NCBI GenBank assembly: GCA_025890175.1
Contig: JANPYM010000010.1
Coordinates: 1,766,427-1,830,426 of the forward strand
Length of the DNA stretch: 64,000 nucleotides
DNA from: Ciborinia camelliae
Lineage: Eukaryota; Ascomycota; Leotiomycetes; Helotiales; Sclerotiniaceae
Reading direction: 5' to 3'
In this document: piece by piece, positions 1,851 through 9,700 of the stretch
Numbering within the stretch: the first letter of the stretch is position 1
Layout of the letters: each line of letters begins with the position of its first letter
Position numbers and translations under genes: made by a program
Notes under the pieces: model-generated
The model's database searches: none
Seen by the model: the letters and a program-made list of their open reading frames with translations, nothing else
What the model was told of the DNA's origin: nothing

Positions 1851-3576
1851 AATAAATAATATATATTATAATAAAGATTAAATATATTAATAAAGTATAA
1901 TAATGATATAGATAATATTTTATTATCTTTTAATTTTATTTTAAAAAAATATATTTTTTTAAATTATTTGATTTTCAATTTATTAATTGGGGAATTATAT
2001 ATAATAATTAGTCTAATTTTGGATTATTTAAAATTAATTATTTATTTAATATATTTATTACTTTAAAAAAGAATTATTATTTTAAAGTTTAGAATATTTA
2101 TTTTAAAAATATAATATATTAATAATTTTAATTAATAATTAATAATATTTTTTTTTAAAATATAATAGATTAAATTTTTAATAAATATAATTTTATTTTT
2201 AATTAATAAAATTATTAAATTATTAATTATATTGGTAAATATTAAAAAGAATATTTTGTATTTTATATATTATTTGATTTATAAAATAATAACTTTTGAA
2301 AAGTTATAATTAAATCTAAAATTTTTATCTATAAATTAAATTTTATTTAAATATATTTTAAAATATTTTTTATTATTATAAAAATAAATTATAAAATTGG
2401 ATAGGAAAAAAAATTTTTTTTATATTAAATATATATATTTTTATTTATAGTTTTAATAAAAAAATTTTAAATCTTTTTATAATATAATTTATTTAGTATA
2501 TTAATAAAATATATTATATTAATATATATTTAAGATTTTAAGTTTTCTTTTAATATAAAAAAAAAAAAATAAAATTAAATTAAATTAATATATTTTCAAT
2601 TTAATTATTATTTTGATTTTAAATATTTTTTTAATTTTTATAAATAAAAAAAATTGTTTTTTAATAAAAATAATAATTTTTTGTTTTTTTAATAATAATA
2701 TTAATATATAAATAATAATTTATTATTTTAATATATTAATAATTTTAAATAATAATTATATATTATTAAAATTTGTTATTAATATAAATATTTTTAATAA
2801 AAATATATATATATTATAAAATATACTTTTTCTTTTTATTTAATTTTTAAATATAAATTTAAATATATTTAATTTATTATTTTTATATTAGAATTTATAT
2901 TTTATCTTTTCAAACTTAATTTTAAAAAAATTAATAATAAATATTAATAATAAATATTTTAAAAATAAAAAAATTATATTTAATATTAATAAAGATTAAT
3001 TATAATCAATAATAAATTTTTTTAAAATATTTATTTTTTAAAAATCTTTTTTAATAATTTCTTTATTATTTTTAAATTCCTAATTTGAATTATTTAATTT
3101 TAAATTTTTTTTAAAAATCTTTTTAATAATTAATAATAAATTTATAATATTAAAAATATTAAATAAACTTAAATCCAAATTTTTATTTAAATATTTATTC
3201 AATTTATTATTATTAAATATTATTTAATTTTTTTTATCCAGATTTTTTATTATTAAAAACTTTTTTATTTTAATTTCTTTTTTATCTCATTAATCGATAA
3301 TTTTAAACTTAAGATTATTTGTTAATCGTTATAATTAGATTTACTATTATATATAATATTATATATTAATTTTTTATATCTAATAAAATATAATTATGTC
3401 CAAAAAAAGTTTATTATACTTTATATTTAATTTAAATAAATTTTTAAGGTTAATAAAGACTAAATAATAATTAAGTTTTTTAATAAATAAATAATCAAAA
3501 TTTTCGAAATTTTTAATAAGTTCAAAATTATATATATAATAATTATTATTATATATCAAGATTTATATTTTGGAAA
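1851..3576 (+). repeat. Left copy of a 1.73-kb duplicated block abutting an assembly gap
   Basis: This 1726-bp block ends exactly at the last base before the run of Ns. It reappears from the first base after the gap (3587-5313). At every anchor I compared (near 1985/3721, the region near 2401/4137, and the end at 3576/5313) the two copies match, with a single T-homopolymer difference near 2440/4176. A repeat whose two copies meet precisely at a gap is the signature of two contigs with an unmerged overlap, so this is probably one genomic segment represented twice. Confidence 0.9.
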
Positions 3577-3586: not shown

Positions 3587-5313
3587 AATAAATAATATAT
3601 ATTATAATAAAGATTAAATATATTAATAAAGTATAATAATGATATAGATAATATTTTATTATCTTTTAATTTTATTTTAAAAAAATATATTTTTTTAAAT
3701 TATTTGATTTTCAATTTATTAATTGGGGAATTATATATAATAATTAGTCTAATTTTGGATTATTTAAAATTAATTATTTATTTAATATATTTATTACTTT
3801 AAAAAAGAATTATTATTTTAAAGTTTAGAATATTTATTTTAAAAATATAATATATTAATAATTTTAATTAATAATTAATAATATTTTTTTTTAAAATATA
3901 ATAGATTAAATTTTTAATAAATATAATTTTATTTTTAATTAATAAAATTATTAAATTATTAATTATATTGGTAAATATTAAAAAGAATATTTTGTATTTT
4001 ATATATTATTTGATTTATAAAATAATAACTTTTGAAAAGTTATAATTAAATCTAAAATTTTTATCTATAAATTAAATTTTATTTAAATATATTTTAAAAT
4101 ATTTTTTATTATTATAAAAATAAATTATAAAATTGGATAGGAAAAAAAATTTTTTTTATATTAAATATATATATTTTTTATTTATAGTTTTAATAAAAAA
4201 ATTTTAAATCTTTTTATAATATAATTTATTTAGTATATTAATAAAATATATTATATTAATATATATTTAAGATTTTAAGTTTTCTTTTAATATAAAAAAA
4301 AAAAAATAAAATTAAATTAAATTAATATATTTTCAATTTAATTATTATTTTGATTTTAAATATTTTTTTAATTTTTATAAATAAAAAAAATTGTTTTTTA
4401 ATAAAAATAATAATTTTTTGTTTTTTTAATAATAATATTAATATATAAATAATAATTTATTATTTTAATATATTAATAATTTTAAATAATAATTATATAT
4501 TATTAAAATTTGTTATTAATATAAATATTTTTAATAAAAATATATATATATTATAAAATATACTTTTTCTTTTTATTTAATTTTTAAATATAAATTTAAA
4601 TATATTTAATTTATTATTTTTATATTAGAATTTATATTTTATCTTTTCAAACTTAATTTTAAAAAAATTAATAATAAATATTAATAATAAATATTTTAAA
4701 AATAAAAAAATTATATTTAATATTAATAAAGATTAATTATAATCAATAATAAATTTTTTTAAAATATTTATTTTTTAAAAATCTTTTTTAATAATTTCTT
4801 TATTATTTTTAAATTCCTAATTTGAATTATTTAATTTTAAATTTTTTTTAAAAATCTTTTTAATAATTAATAATAAATTTATAATATTAAAAATATTAAA
4901 TAAACTTAAATCCAAATTTTTATTTAAATATTTATTCAATTTATTATTATTAAATATTATTTAATTTTTTTTATCCAGATTTTTTATTATTAAAAACTTT
5001 TTTATTTTAATTTCTTTTTTATCTCATTAATCGATAATTTTAAACTTAAGATTATTTGTTAATCGTTATAATTAGATTTACTATTATATATAATATTATA
5101 TATTAATTTTTTATATCTAATAAAATATAATTATGTCCAAAAAAAGTTTATTATACTTTATATTTAATTTAAATAAATTTTTAAGGTTAATAAAGACTAA
5201 ATAATAATTAAGTTTTTTAATAAATAAATAATCAAAATTTTCGAAATTTTTAATAAGTTCAAAATTATATATATAATAATTATTATTATATATCAAGATT
5301 TATATTTTGGAAA
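3587..5313 (+). repeat. Right copy of the duplicated block
   Basis: This 1727-bp block starts directly after the N run and repeats 1851-3576 in direct orientation, one base longer in a T run. RIP would be expected to make old genomic duplicates diverge, so near-identity in RIP-type sequence argues against a genuine ancient duplication. Confidence 0.9.
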
Positions 5314-6339
5314 TATAAAATAATATATAATAAATATTATATTTTAAAAATTTAAAAAATAATTTTTATTTAAAATAAAAGTTTATTATAATATATAAAA
5401 ATTTTTTTTAATTTATTTAATAAATATTAAAAAGCTTTATATTATTTTTATAAATTATTAAATTAATTTTGAATATAAAAATCCGAATTATAGATTTTAT
5501 ATTTTAAAATATTAAATAAAAAATAATATAAATAAAACAAAATATAATATTTTTCAAAATAATATTACAAAATTTTAAAAAATATATATTATTTATTATA
5601 AAAAATATTATAAAATTATAAAAAATAAAAATATTATTAATTAATATATATTTTTAATTCTATAAAATTATTTAATAAATTAAAATATTTAAGAATATAA
5701 AAATTATATTTTAAAAATATAAATAATATTTAATTATATAGAATATAAAATAAATTTTAATAAATCTTAATATTGATATATAAAATATAATATAAAATAA
5801 TCCGAAAATATAAGAATATATACAAAATAATTGGTTTATTTAATAATTATTAAATAATAAACTTTAAATTCAAAAAATATTTATAAATTTTGAGATAAAA
5901 AAATAATTATTTAAAAAAAATTAAAATAAAAAGTTTTAAAGGTTTTTTTAATATTATAATAATATTTTTTTATATTAAATATATTATATTAATAATAAAT
6001 TTATTTTTTATATTAATATTAAATATAATATAATTAATAATAAAAAAAAATATTTCTTAATAATATTTTATAATATTTAATAAATTAAATAATAATTTTT
6101 TTATAATTAAATATAATTAATTAAAAAATCTTTAATATTATTATATAAATATTAAATTATATTAGGAATTAAAATAAGGATTATAATAAATAAATATTTA
6201 TATAAAAATACAATAATTTACTAATAAATTTAATATTAAATAATTTATATTTATTTAATTCGGGAAATATTTATTTATTTTTAATATAGAATATTCAATT
6301 ATATTAAATAATCCTATAAGATTTAATATTAAACTATTA

Positions 6340-6344
6340 GAATT
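6340..6344 (+). repeat. Target site duplication (left), GAATT
   Basis: GAATT directly precedes the TGTCA start of the element, and the same five bases directly follow its TGACA end at 6790-6794. Five-base duplications are typical of integrases of Ty3/gypsy-type retrotransposons. Confidence 0.85.
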
Positions 6345-6481
6345 TGTCACGGTGTGGATCCACTGGGTGGGTCCTGATCCCCATCGTGACAGGGTTTATA
6401 TAGTAGAACAACTATTCCAGATCCCAATCTGGAATACTCCACGCTTTTGTGGCGCAGTGGTAAAGTTGTTCACCCCTGACA
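6345..6481 (+). repeat. Left LTR of the TRIM
   Basis: A 137-bp terminal repeat with TG...CA ends. The first 46 nt can fold back (GTCACG at 6346-6351 with CGTGAC at 6385-6390). A perfect 10-bp inverted repeat (TATTCCAGAT at 6413-6422 and ATCTGGAATA at 6427-6436, four-base spacer) lies near the middle. If the transcript begins at about 6426, its first bases would be those that pair with the primer site, so I place the U3/R boundary there by inference. Confidence 0.85.
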
Positions 6482-6483
6482 CT

Positions 6484-6495
6484 GTATTCCAGATT
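6484..6495 (+). promoter_or_regulatory. Putative self-priming primer-binding site of the TRIM
   Basis: The 12 bases GTATTCCAGATT start two bases after the LTR and are the exact reverse complement of AATCTGGAATAC at 6426-6437 inside the LTR. In Tf1 and sushi-type elements the 5' end of the mRNA folds back on such a site to prime reverse transcription, replacing a tRNA. I see no tRNA-type site here. Function is inferred from position and complementarity. Confidence 0.65.
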
Positions 6496-6640
6496 AATTG
6501 GTCGGTATGTTCTGAGATCAGTTCTTGGCGAGGATATACCACTTCGAATTAATTTATTTTAATTCAGCTGCAACTATAAATGCTTCCCACTCTTGTCGTG
6601 TGGGCTTACCCTTGTCTTGAACCCGGGGGGTTCACGCTAA

Positions 6641-6652
6641 GACGGGGGTGAG
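6641..6652 (+). promoter_or_regulatory. Putative polypurine tract of the TRIM
   Basis: GACGGGGGTGAG directly abuts the right LTR, the position where plus-strand DNA synthesis is primed in LTR retrotransposons. It is purine-rich with two pyrimidine interruptions. Confidence 0.6.
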
Positions 6653-6789
6653 TGTCACGGTGTGGATCCACTGGGTGGGTCCTGATCCCCATCGTGACAG
6701 GGTTTATATAGTAGAACAACTATTCCAGATCCCAATCTGGAATACTCCACGCTTTTGTGGCGCAGTGGTAAAGTTGTTCACCCCTGACA
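6653..6789 (+). repeat. Right LTR of the TRIM
   Basis: Identical over all 137 bp to 6345-6481. Identity of the two LTRs indicates little time since integration. Confidence 0.85.
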
Positions 6790-6794
6790 GAATT
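6790..6794 (+). repeat. Target site duplication (right), GAATT
   Basis: Same five bases as at 6340-6344, directly after the terminal TGACA. Confidence 0.85.
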
Positions 6795-9700
6795 ATATTT
6801 ATATTATATATTTCATAATTTTATTCTAATCCCATATCCTTATTTTTATATTTACAATTTATTAAATTTTTTATATTAATTTAAAAATATAGGATTTAAG
6901 ATATTTTTTATATAAGAATTATATATAAAGAAAATAAATAATTATTTTTTATTATTTATTTTATATTTTATTATTTGGATTTAATAAAAACAAATGGTTG
7001 ATTATAATAATATAAAAAAGTAAAGGCAGATTTTTAATATTATTATAATAGTAGATAATTAAAGTATAACAAAAATGAAAGCGAAAACAAAATTATACTT
7101 AAAAATGTTAAAAGAATTCCTTACATAAATCTAGGATTAATTAATATATAAATATTAATAAAATTGTTAATATAACTTAATAATCTAATTAATCTATTTT
7201 TATATTAAAAAATCTTTTCTATGTAATAAAGGTAATAAAATTAAGGTCCAAAAAATAAATAACTATTTTTTAGAAAAATATTATTTTGATATTAAATTTG
7301 CAAAATATTAATTTACAATTATTTAATATTAATAATTAAATTAATTTTAAAAAATATTAAAAATATATTAATATTATTATAAAAATAAACTTTAAAAAAA
7401 ATAAAATTATTATTAATAAAAATAATTATTTTAATATTTTATTAGAATTTTGGTAAAAAATAATTTGTTATATTAATTATCAATCCAAATAAATGTTTTT
7501 ATTAATTCTAAAACATAATATCAATAAAAGTTTAAAATATCCTAACAAAGATATTATTATAATAAAATTATTAATAAATAATATAGATTTATTATTACAG
7601 GAAGTCTAAAATTTTTAAAAAATAATTATAACAAAAATTAAATATATAAAAATGAAATTAATAAATCTTTTTATTATAAATAATTATAATTATTTTTAAA
7701 AATATAATTTTAATCAAGTTTTTATAAAGTTATATACATAATCATTTAATTATAAATAAAACTAACAATAATTAACTAATTTATATCAATAATACATTTC
7801 AAAATATAATATTTTTTTTTGCTCAATATTATATAAAAAAAAACTTTTTTTATATTTTTTGATTTATTAAAAATATTATAAAATAAAAAAAATTAATAAA
7901 AAAAAAAAAATAATATTAAACTATATTATACTTAAATTTATATTATAAATATTTTCTTTATATAAAAACTATAAAATAAAAAAATATAAATAATTTGAAA
8001 AATTAATCCAAATTTTTTATATATATCTATAATTTTATTAATAATTTAAAATAAATAATATAACAATTAAATTTTAAAAAAATATAAATATTATTATTCA
8101 AACTTGGGAATCCTTCCAAAATAATAAAAAAAAAGCCCCTTATTAAAGATATAAACTTTATATTTATAATATAATTATCCATTAAAATTCAAAATATTAA
8201 TTTCATTAAAACTCAAGATATCGATTTTGCTAATATTGCCAAAATAAATAATATTACAAATTATCTAGATTTTTTTAATAATAACAAAAAGGATAGGATT
8301 TAATATAAAAATATAAATTATATAAAATTTTAAAAATATTTAAATTAATAATTTATAACTTAATTCTTTTTTTTATATTAAAAAATTGCTTTTTATTATA
8401 CAAATATAAAAAATTTGTTTTTTTTTAATTTAATTTTAAGATATCCGATTTATTTATATTATTAATTATTATAAATGATAATTATTTTGATATAAAAAAA
8501 AGTTATAATATTTATTAATAATAATTAATTTTTTTTATATATTTATAAAATATATTTTGAAACTAATTTTTTTTAATATAATTATTTTATATTTATTTAA
8601 TATTTAATTATAAAAATATTAAATAAGATTATATTTTTTAAAAAAATATTTTTTTAAAATATTAAAATAATTTTTTTATAGATTATATTTAGTAATTCTA
8701 ATTTTAAATATATAATATATATAAAATAATAAACTATCAGATTTTATATTTAAAAAATTAATTATATTTAAATAAATTATAATAATAATCTAATACAATA
8801 AAATATTTTTTATTATTTATTATAATATTTTGTTTATTTTTATAATACTATATTTATAATTTTAATAATTAATATAATTAATATTATATTTATTTCAAAA
8901 ATATATTAAATAAATTAAACTAAAAATTTACTTTCATTTAAATTATAATTAAAAGAAATATTATTAAATTTAACATTAATATTAAAAATTTTAATTTTAT
9001 ATAAAAAATAATTTAATAATAAATATACCAAACAATTAATAATATTATTTACAACAATTTTAAAAAATTATAATCAGGCTATCGTATTATTATCAATATA
9101 TTAAATTATCATATTATTTAATAAAAAAAAATTTAATAAAATAAAATATATTATATTATTTATATATATTTATTATATTTAATATTAATTGTTTTATATA
9201 AATCTAATATTATATTTTAAAAATATCCTTATAAATTATTATTTTTATTTATAAATATATTTTTTTATAATAAACTAAATCTATTATTTTAAATTATATA
9301 AAGCCATTTATAATCCTATTAAATTCGGTATATTAATTTTATTAAATAATAATAAAAATTATATTATTTATTATAATTGAATTAAAAAAATTGTTAATAA
9401 TAATTTAAATCTTATAATTTTAATATATTTTAAAATCAATTATATTATAAAATTTTAAATTAAAAAAATATATTATATTTATATTAATATTAATAATTAA
9501 TATATATTTATATTTTAAAATAAAATCGATTTAATTTAATAAACTTTATTATTAAATATTACAAAAAATATAATATATAATAATATATTTAATAAAAATA
9601 AAGATTAATATTAATAAATAACAAATATATTTGATATTATAAATATTATATAAAAAATATTTTTTAAATATATATTTAACAAATATAATTAAATATAAAA

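Follow-up and report, generated by a model that had tools for sequence, protein, structure and literature searches.

The window, a 64,000-nucleotide stretch of a Ciborinia camelliae contig, contains a RAD54 gene that is 97% identical at the protein level to a protein attributed to Botrytis porri, which places the host in or near Botrytis, and an AT-rich block in which comparison in purine/pyrimidine code reveals a 1.7-kb direct repeat (1851-3576 and 3588-5313). A 445-bp miniature LTR retrotransposon (TRIM) of 48% G+C lies at 6345-6789, between flanks that have 7% G+C over 2 kb. Its 5' and 3' LTRs (6345-6481 and 6653-6789; forward strand, as are all features of the element given below) have the form TG...CA and are identical at 137/137 positions, and the window sequence shows a GAATT target site duplication (TSD) on the left (6340-6344) and on the right (6790-6794). 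The 171-bp internal region (6482-6652) has no long ORF: among ORFs of at least 30 aa, the longest one overlapping the TRIM encodes 66 aa from a GTG start. A polypurine tract, GACGGGGGTGAG (6641-6652), adjoins the right LTR and is kept in the family alignment. These LTRs, the TSD, the purine tract and the interior had all been described in an earlier note on this DNA and lie where it had placed them. With two short LTRs, a total length below 1 kb, no coding sequence, a polypurine tract and a TSD, the element resembles known TRIMs, which have these features together with LTRs of 100-250 bp and a primer-binding site. Rfam gave no match in 6300-6850 (E up to 1), and a tRNA gene search of the window found none.

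The LTR opens with a U3 start module, TGTCACG...GTGACA (6345-6391), whose length and sequence vary among copies, as seen in an alignment of 19 TRIM copies and in LTR-only copies. It is followed by a TATA-box-like TATATAG (6397-6403), a putative promoter element that is kept in the alignment. The predicted self-primer, AATCTGGAATAC (6426-6437), begins 29 bp downstream of the T that opens this box and would also mark the start of R, a placement that rests on the TATA spacing and on complementarity. Two bases past the left LTR lies the primer-binding site (PBS), GTATTCCAGATT (6484-6495), which matches the reverse complement of 6426-6437 at every base, as the earlier note had observed.

The TRIM belongs to a family. 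At least 38 BLAST matches to the 445-bp element were found in its own genome (46.2 Mb, 27 contigs), with at least 43 for the LTR and at least 13 for the internal part; the single-copy outcome that the earlier note had set against its own reading is thus absent. For comparison, 17 further two-LTR loci, 17 LTR-only copies and the locus L108 were taken. A perfect 5-bp TSD flanks 16 of the 17 two-LTR copies checked (window copy included) and 12 of the 17 LTR-only copies, after the boundaries of L025, L031, L043, L040 and L044 had been corrected by eye; L108 and L023, whose flank contains an N, were left unscored. The TSD of L027 matches at 4/5 bases, and the LTR-only copies L036, L042, L047, L048 and L049 have no perfect one. 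Several of the family's TSDs consist of A and T only and are weak as single cases.

The alignment omits two copies: L024, which is compound, and the one in reverse orientation in L043. Among its 19 members the window copy alone has an identical LTR pair, which supports the recent insertion proposed in the earlier note. Differences between the LTRs of a pair are mostly transitions, with zero transversions in 13 of the 19 copies, and such transition-dominated change is a mark of RIP. G+C content is at or below 37% in 13/19 aligned copies; thus, shortness does not protect this family, and the suggestion that the element had escaped RIP through its short length finds no support. Insertion flanks (n = 35) have less than 20% G+C in 23 cases, 20-35% in 10 and more in two. 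That 33 of the 35 flanks lie below 35% G+C fits the targeting to heterochromatin that had been suspected, and it also fits a selective loss of copies elsewhere.

Some copies have a more complex structure. In L018, L026, L027 and L030, the 5' and 3' LTRs of one element differ in the U3 module or in a hairpin loop described below, which is not expected of a fresh insertion and suggests that copies have recombined or undergone gene conversion with one another. The copy at L022:1041-1842 is a tandem LTR-internal-LTR-internal-LTR arrangement within one AACTT duplication pair. About 0.4 kb separates the L021 copy from a Copia reverse transcriptase (RT) match upstream of it on the same strand (C25:720321-721001 and C25:721417-721881).

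The complementarity between LTR and PBS is improbable as a chance feature and is kept in the family. Of 20,000 dinucleotide-shuffled LTRs, one contained a 12-nt complement to a stretch of the 16 bases that follow the LTR. Primer and site pair at 12/12 positions by Watson-Crick rules in all seven copies that have at least 37% G+C and keep both sites; L026 has lost its PBS. Of the 18 copies keeping both, 11 show no mismatch when G:U is allowed, and the remaining seven, all at or below 32% G+C, show one to four. In L022b primer and site both differ from those of other copies and yet pair, which RIP acting on both could bring about by chance. A RIP-tolerant pattern combining the LTR end and the primer site occurs at 19 places, and its control at none. 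In predicted folds, the window RNA 6426-6653 (228 nt) has a z score of -4.6 against 200 shuffles with the primer helix closed, and the primer:PBS helix is part of the minimum-energy structure in 7/7 copies folded. The 'pretzel' of Tf1 requires two further duplexes beside the primer, according to the available text of PMC10085805; in the predicted TRIM folds the central duplex forms, and the flanking ones are weak or absent, a single weak one on the LTR side appearing in part of the folds.

Published TRIMs are defined with a tRNA primer site (PMC6934838, available text) and the fungal Helenus TRIMs use tRNAs (PMC10886601, available text), so a tRNA-primed element, or one primed by half-tRNAs as in Helenus, with an incidental LTR complement, has precedent on its side. 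The LTR also contains a tRNA-like box A, TGGCGCAGTGGTAA (6450-6463), a 14-nt identity to three host tRNA loci read as tRNA-Thr (TGT). However, no tRNA 3'-end signature directly follows the LTR, and the longest exact complement to host tRNAs is 9 nt and antisense, against 12 nt in the element's own LTR; this comparison covered 54 loci out of 61 tRNA matches, themselves among the best 62 of 2182 candidates scored, so that the set may be incomplete. A tRNA-complementary PBS, by which TRIMs are usually recognised, is thus lacking among the 54 loci compared, and the shuffling result argues against an incidental complement. Priming by a tRNA was rejected on this basis and is considered very unlikely. 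A post-LTR hairpin of the kind known from fungal GalEa (Copia) elements was rejected as well: the Conserved Hairpin Site of GalEa is a palindromic CTGATCAGT/CTAATTAGT directly after the LTR (PMC5445492, available text), and the TRIM reads CTGTATTCCAGATT there.

The same geometry recurs with another sequence in a gypsy family of this genome. Self-comparison in purine/pyrimidine code, which RIP leaves unchanged, revealed gypsy LTRs, among them a pair in L051 that is spaced by 6515 bp and encloses a gypsy RT/RNase H match. The corresponding family of 188-bp LTRs is little mutated and 94-100% identical among the best 40 of 225 candidates scored. One little-mutated copy (L044:2975-3162) starts with TGTCACG and ends with TGACA, as does the TRIM LTR. 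After the L051 LTR come two bases and then AAAAACTATATT, which complements AATATAGTTTTT of the same LTR; by chance, 34 of 6300 positions tested within L051 have a comparable 12-nt complement. The L044 LTR carries AGTATAGTTTTT, and six of 16 exact sites in the genome read AAAAACTATACT, its exact complement.

These 16 sites are the exact matches to a pattern of gypsy LTR end plus primer site that was read from L051. Twelve of them have an RT match on the same strand 3.2-5.3 kb downstream (11/15 when L051 itself is left out) and four have none, and wrong-side or wrong-strand pairings number 0 among 45 RT matches. Sites with one mismatch have an RT match in 5/40 cases and none in 35/40. Because allowing one mismatch yielded 56 matches for the pattern and 39 for its reversed control, only the RT-linked sites carry weight. 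The TRIM and gypsy primers misfit each other's sites, with 5/12 Watson-Crick pairs; therefore, primer and site have changed together. It is hard to see what other than self-priming in both families would account for two different sequences in one geometry. The Tf1-type priming proposed in the earlier note is thus well supported at the sequence level for the TRIM, by a pair kept in the family, by the absence of a good match among the 54 tRNA loci and by the same geometry with a different sequence in gypsy elements; the tRNA-primed relatives that the note had named as contrary evidence did not turn up among the elements compared.

The gypsy elements (L051, L044, L029) resemble the TRIM in their TGTCACG...TGACA ends and in the two-base spacer followed by a 12-nt self-complementary site, and the L029 and L044 LTRs are flanked by 5-bp TSDs, as in the TRIM. 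The purine tract before the 3' LTR of L051, AAAAATGA, resembles its TRIM counterpart, GGGGGTGAG, the two differing mainly by G/A. By contrast, the LTR body and the 12-nt sequence are unrelated to those of the TRIM, and the gypsy element has an RT and is about 6.7 kb long (L051). No full-length copy with the LTR body of the TRIM was found. The gypsy element with 188-bp LTRs is the likely helper of the TRIM, given the LTR ends and site geometry common to both and the similarity of their purine tracts. Of the chromovirus parasitism suggested earlier, dependence on a self-primed gypsy element is accordingly likely. As for the chromodomain, the match nearest to any of the 45 RT matches is 20 kb away and none falls within 10 kb, but the gypsy copies are too heavily mutated for this absence to carry weight.

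Two other loci are of related interest. A 1.6-kb element with an LTR pair (L028:7608-9207) has a post-LTR site, AGAATTATACT, that nearly complements its own LTR, and is perhaps another non-autonomous self-primed element. In L050 (C11:294000-302500), little-mutated gypsy-like frames, including an open RT/RNase H frame of 237 aa, are present in this RIP-prone genome, with no LTR pair in the stretch examined.

A Copia element could have mobilised the TRIM instead, as proposed for fungal Helenus. The genome contains 26 Copia RT matches, of which one retains an open frame of 555 aa, and 5-bp TSDs suit Copia and gypsy alike. Self-priming, however, has been described for Ty3/gypsy elements in the literature as available, fungal GalEa Copia elements have a different post-LTR hairpin (PMC5445492, available text), and the common ends, the purine tract and the primer geometry all point to gypsy. 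A Copia helper is therefore rather improbable.

The LTR contains an inverted repeat of nine bases (6413-6421 and 6428-6436), unmentioned in the earlier note, that spans the predicted U3/R border and reads TATTCCAGA - loop - TCTGGAATA. The U3 arm, TATTCCAGA (6413-6421), has the letters of the core of the PBS; the post-LTR site thus resembles one arm of the LTR hairpin and complements the other, with nine bases in common. A perfect stem is present in 13 of the 17 LTR-only copies and, among the 19 aligned copies, in both LTRs of five (L001, L017, L018, L020, L026); the loop sequence differs between copies (TCCCAA, TACCCAA, ACAA, CCAA, AGCAA and others). In the window copy the 3' palindrome (6721-6744) is predicted to form a hairpin in which the 3' primer copy is bound up, with a mean pairing probability of 0.94.

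Folds running from the R start to the 3' LTR suggest a role for this hairpin. In seven copies the probability that the PBS is paired is 0.39-0.97 for the 5' copy of R and 0-0.07 for the 3' copy. When the U3 arm is barred from pairing, the 3' copy takes the PBS at 0.38 in L001, 0.49 in L017 and 0.58 in L022b, at 0.18 in L019, and at no more than 0.03 in L018, L020 and L022a. The hairpin may thus keep the 3' primer copy off the PBS, an effect that in these models is clear in three of the seven copies, weak in one and absent in three. A supposed compensatory change in a hairpin beside the purine tract was dropped, as the folds do not bear it out.

The palindrome also offers another origin for the complement, which could be its relic, left by fold-back cDNA synthesis or by a function of the LTR hairpin at the DNA level, with priming achieved otherwise. 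The nine bases common to U3 arm and PBS agree with this, as does the LTR-only copy L047:4838-4967 (minus strand), in which the loop of the U3/R hairpin reads TTGGGA instead of TCCCAA, an inversion that could be expected from template switching between the hairpin arms. However, the 12-nt fit to R exceeds the 9-bp arm, and the gypsy LTR of L044, which has the same geometry, has no such palindrome at the start of R. Such an origin is very unlikely.

The box A-like stretch bears on how the RNA would be made. It sits in the well-kept 3' part of the LTR and equals the box A of the three tRNA-Thr loci, an identity of at least 14 nt that occurred in 7/2000 shuffled LTRs; a further 9-10-nt sharing between an LTR arm and the tRNA locus L065 was discarded as chance level (at least 10 nt in 925/2000 shuffled LTRs). 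A TATA box at -29 and a box A at +25 resemble the arrangement of the yeast U6 gene. Furthermore, 6426-6789 has no T run longer than 4, in contrast to the gypsy LTR with its run of seven T in R. The TRIM could thus be a self-primed element transcribed by pol III from 6426 through TATA and internal box A, akin to TRIMp3 and Helenus. Against this, the LTR has no box B at normal tRNA spacing, Rfam gave no match, the host U6 gene offered no clear yardstick, and T runs of five or more occur in 13/19 copies, mostly mutated ones. Pol III transcription is accordingly a minority reading and is regarded as unlikely.

Anatomy, family, TSDs, both complementary pairs and the association of gypsy sites with RT are all observed, and they are probably best explained by a young, self-primed TRIM copy that was replicated through RNA with the proteins of another element, likely gypsy. 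Transcription would probably start at 6426, so that the RNA begins with AATCTGGAATAC. These 12 bases at the 5' end would fold back onto 6484-6495, two bases past the LTR, and the helper's RNase H would cut behind base 12, as in Tf1, freeing a 12-mer that primes minus-strand cDNA. The proteins would be supplied in trans by the genome's self-primed Ty3/gypsy family, whose 12-nt sequence is its own. Since that pair differs from the pair of the TRIM, the helper would recognise the duplex and its place rather than its sequence. Several points stand against this explanation: the LTR complement could be a by-product of the palindrome, the flanking duplexes of the Tf1 'pretzel' are weak or absent in the folds, primer and site mismatch in seven of 18 copies, some gypsy sites have no RT match, no full-length relative carrying the LTR body of the TRIM turned up, and the 26 Copia RT matches could represent alternative helpers.

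A more specific version is held only tentatively and is somewhat unlikely: a self-primed TRIM whose primer pair has fully diverged from that of its gypsy helper and is controlled by a decoy in U3. The U3 arm, which copies the PBS, would fold onto the 3' copy of R. Since U3 is missing from the 5' end of the RNA, that end alone would stay free to prime. In its boldest form, pol III would make the RNA from the tRNA-derived box A and the TATA box, uniting TRIMp3 with self-priming.

Compared with known systems, the element is a TRIM by anatomy that would work like a Tf1-type element. As in Tf1/sushi elements such as Tf1 and Tf2, the LTR ends in CA and the predicted 5' end of the RNA complements a site just past the 5' LTR, over 12 nt in the TRIM and 11 nt in Tf1 (PMC7175516, available text); unlike them, the TRIM is 445 bp long, has no coding sequence, encodes no chromodomain proteins and has a U3/R palindrome. 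The available text of PMC6934838, citing Lin and Levin 1997, counts Boty, Maggy, Skippy and other fungal gypsy elements among the self-primed ones. Known TRIMs have a tRNA primer site, whereas the site of this one complements its own LTR. Helenus/TRIMp3, whose fungal hosts are Pucciniales and Agaricomycetes, has tRNA-like LTR sequences and, in fungi, tRNA sites that are mostly of the anticodon-loop kind (PMC10886601, available text). It shares with the 445-bp TRIM a fungal host, 5-bp TSDs and a tRNA-like box A in the LTR, but its LTR has boxes A and B, while only box A and no tRNA site were found here, and the host is an ascomycete rather than a basidiomycete, with a likely gypsy rather than Copia helper. 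The biv-TRIM of bivalves likewise lacks a canonical tRNA site and has inverted repeats in its internal part, and its authors point to self-primed elements as further examples of this lack of a tRNA site; unlike for the TRIM described here, the available text of PMC6934838 reports no LTR-complementary site and proposes no mechanism.

No self-primed TRIM was found in the open-access literature searched, as far as its available text goes, the primary Tf1 papers being known through papers that cite them. If the explanation favoured here is true, TRIMs need no borrowed tRNA. Two unrelated 12-nt pairs in one geometry within one genome would then form a natural test of RT recognition, in which recognition of duplex and position rather than of sequence is at stake. 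A TRIM RNA of about 350 nt would be a small in vitro system for self-priming, and copies of differing mutation load would allow the upkeep of complementarity to be followed.
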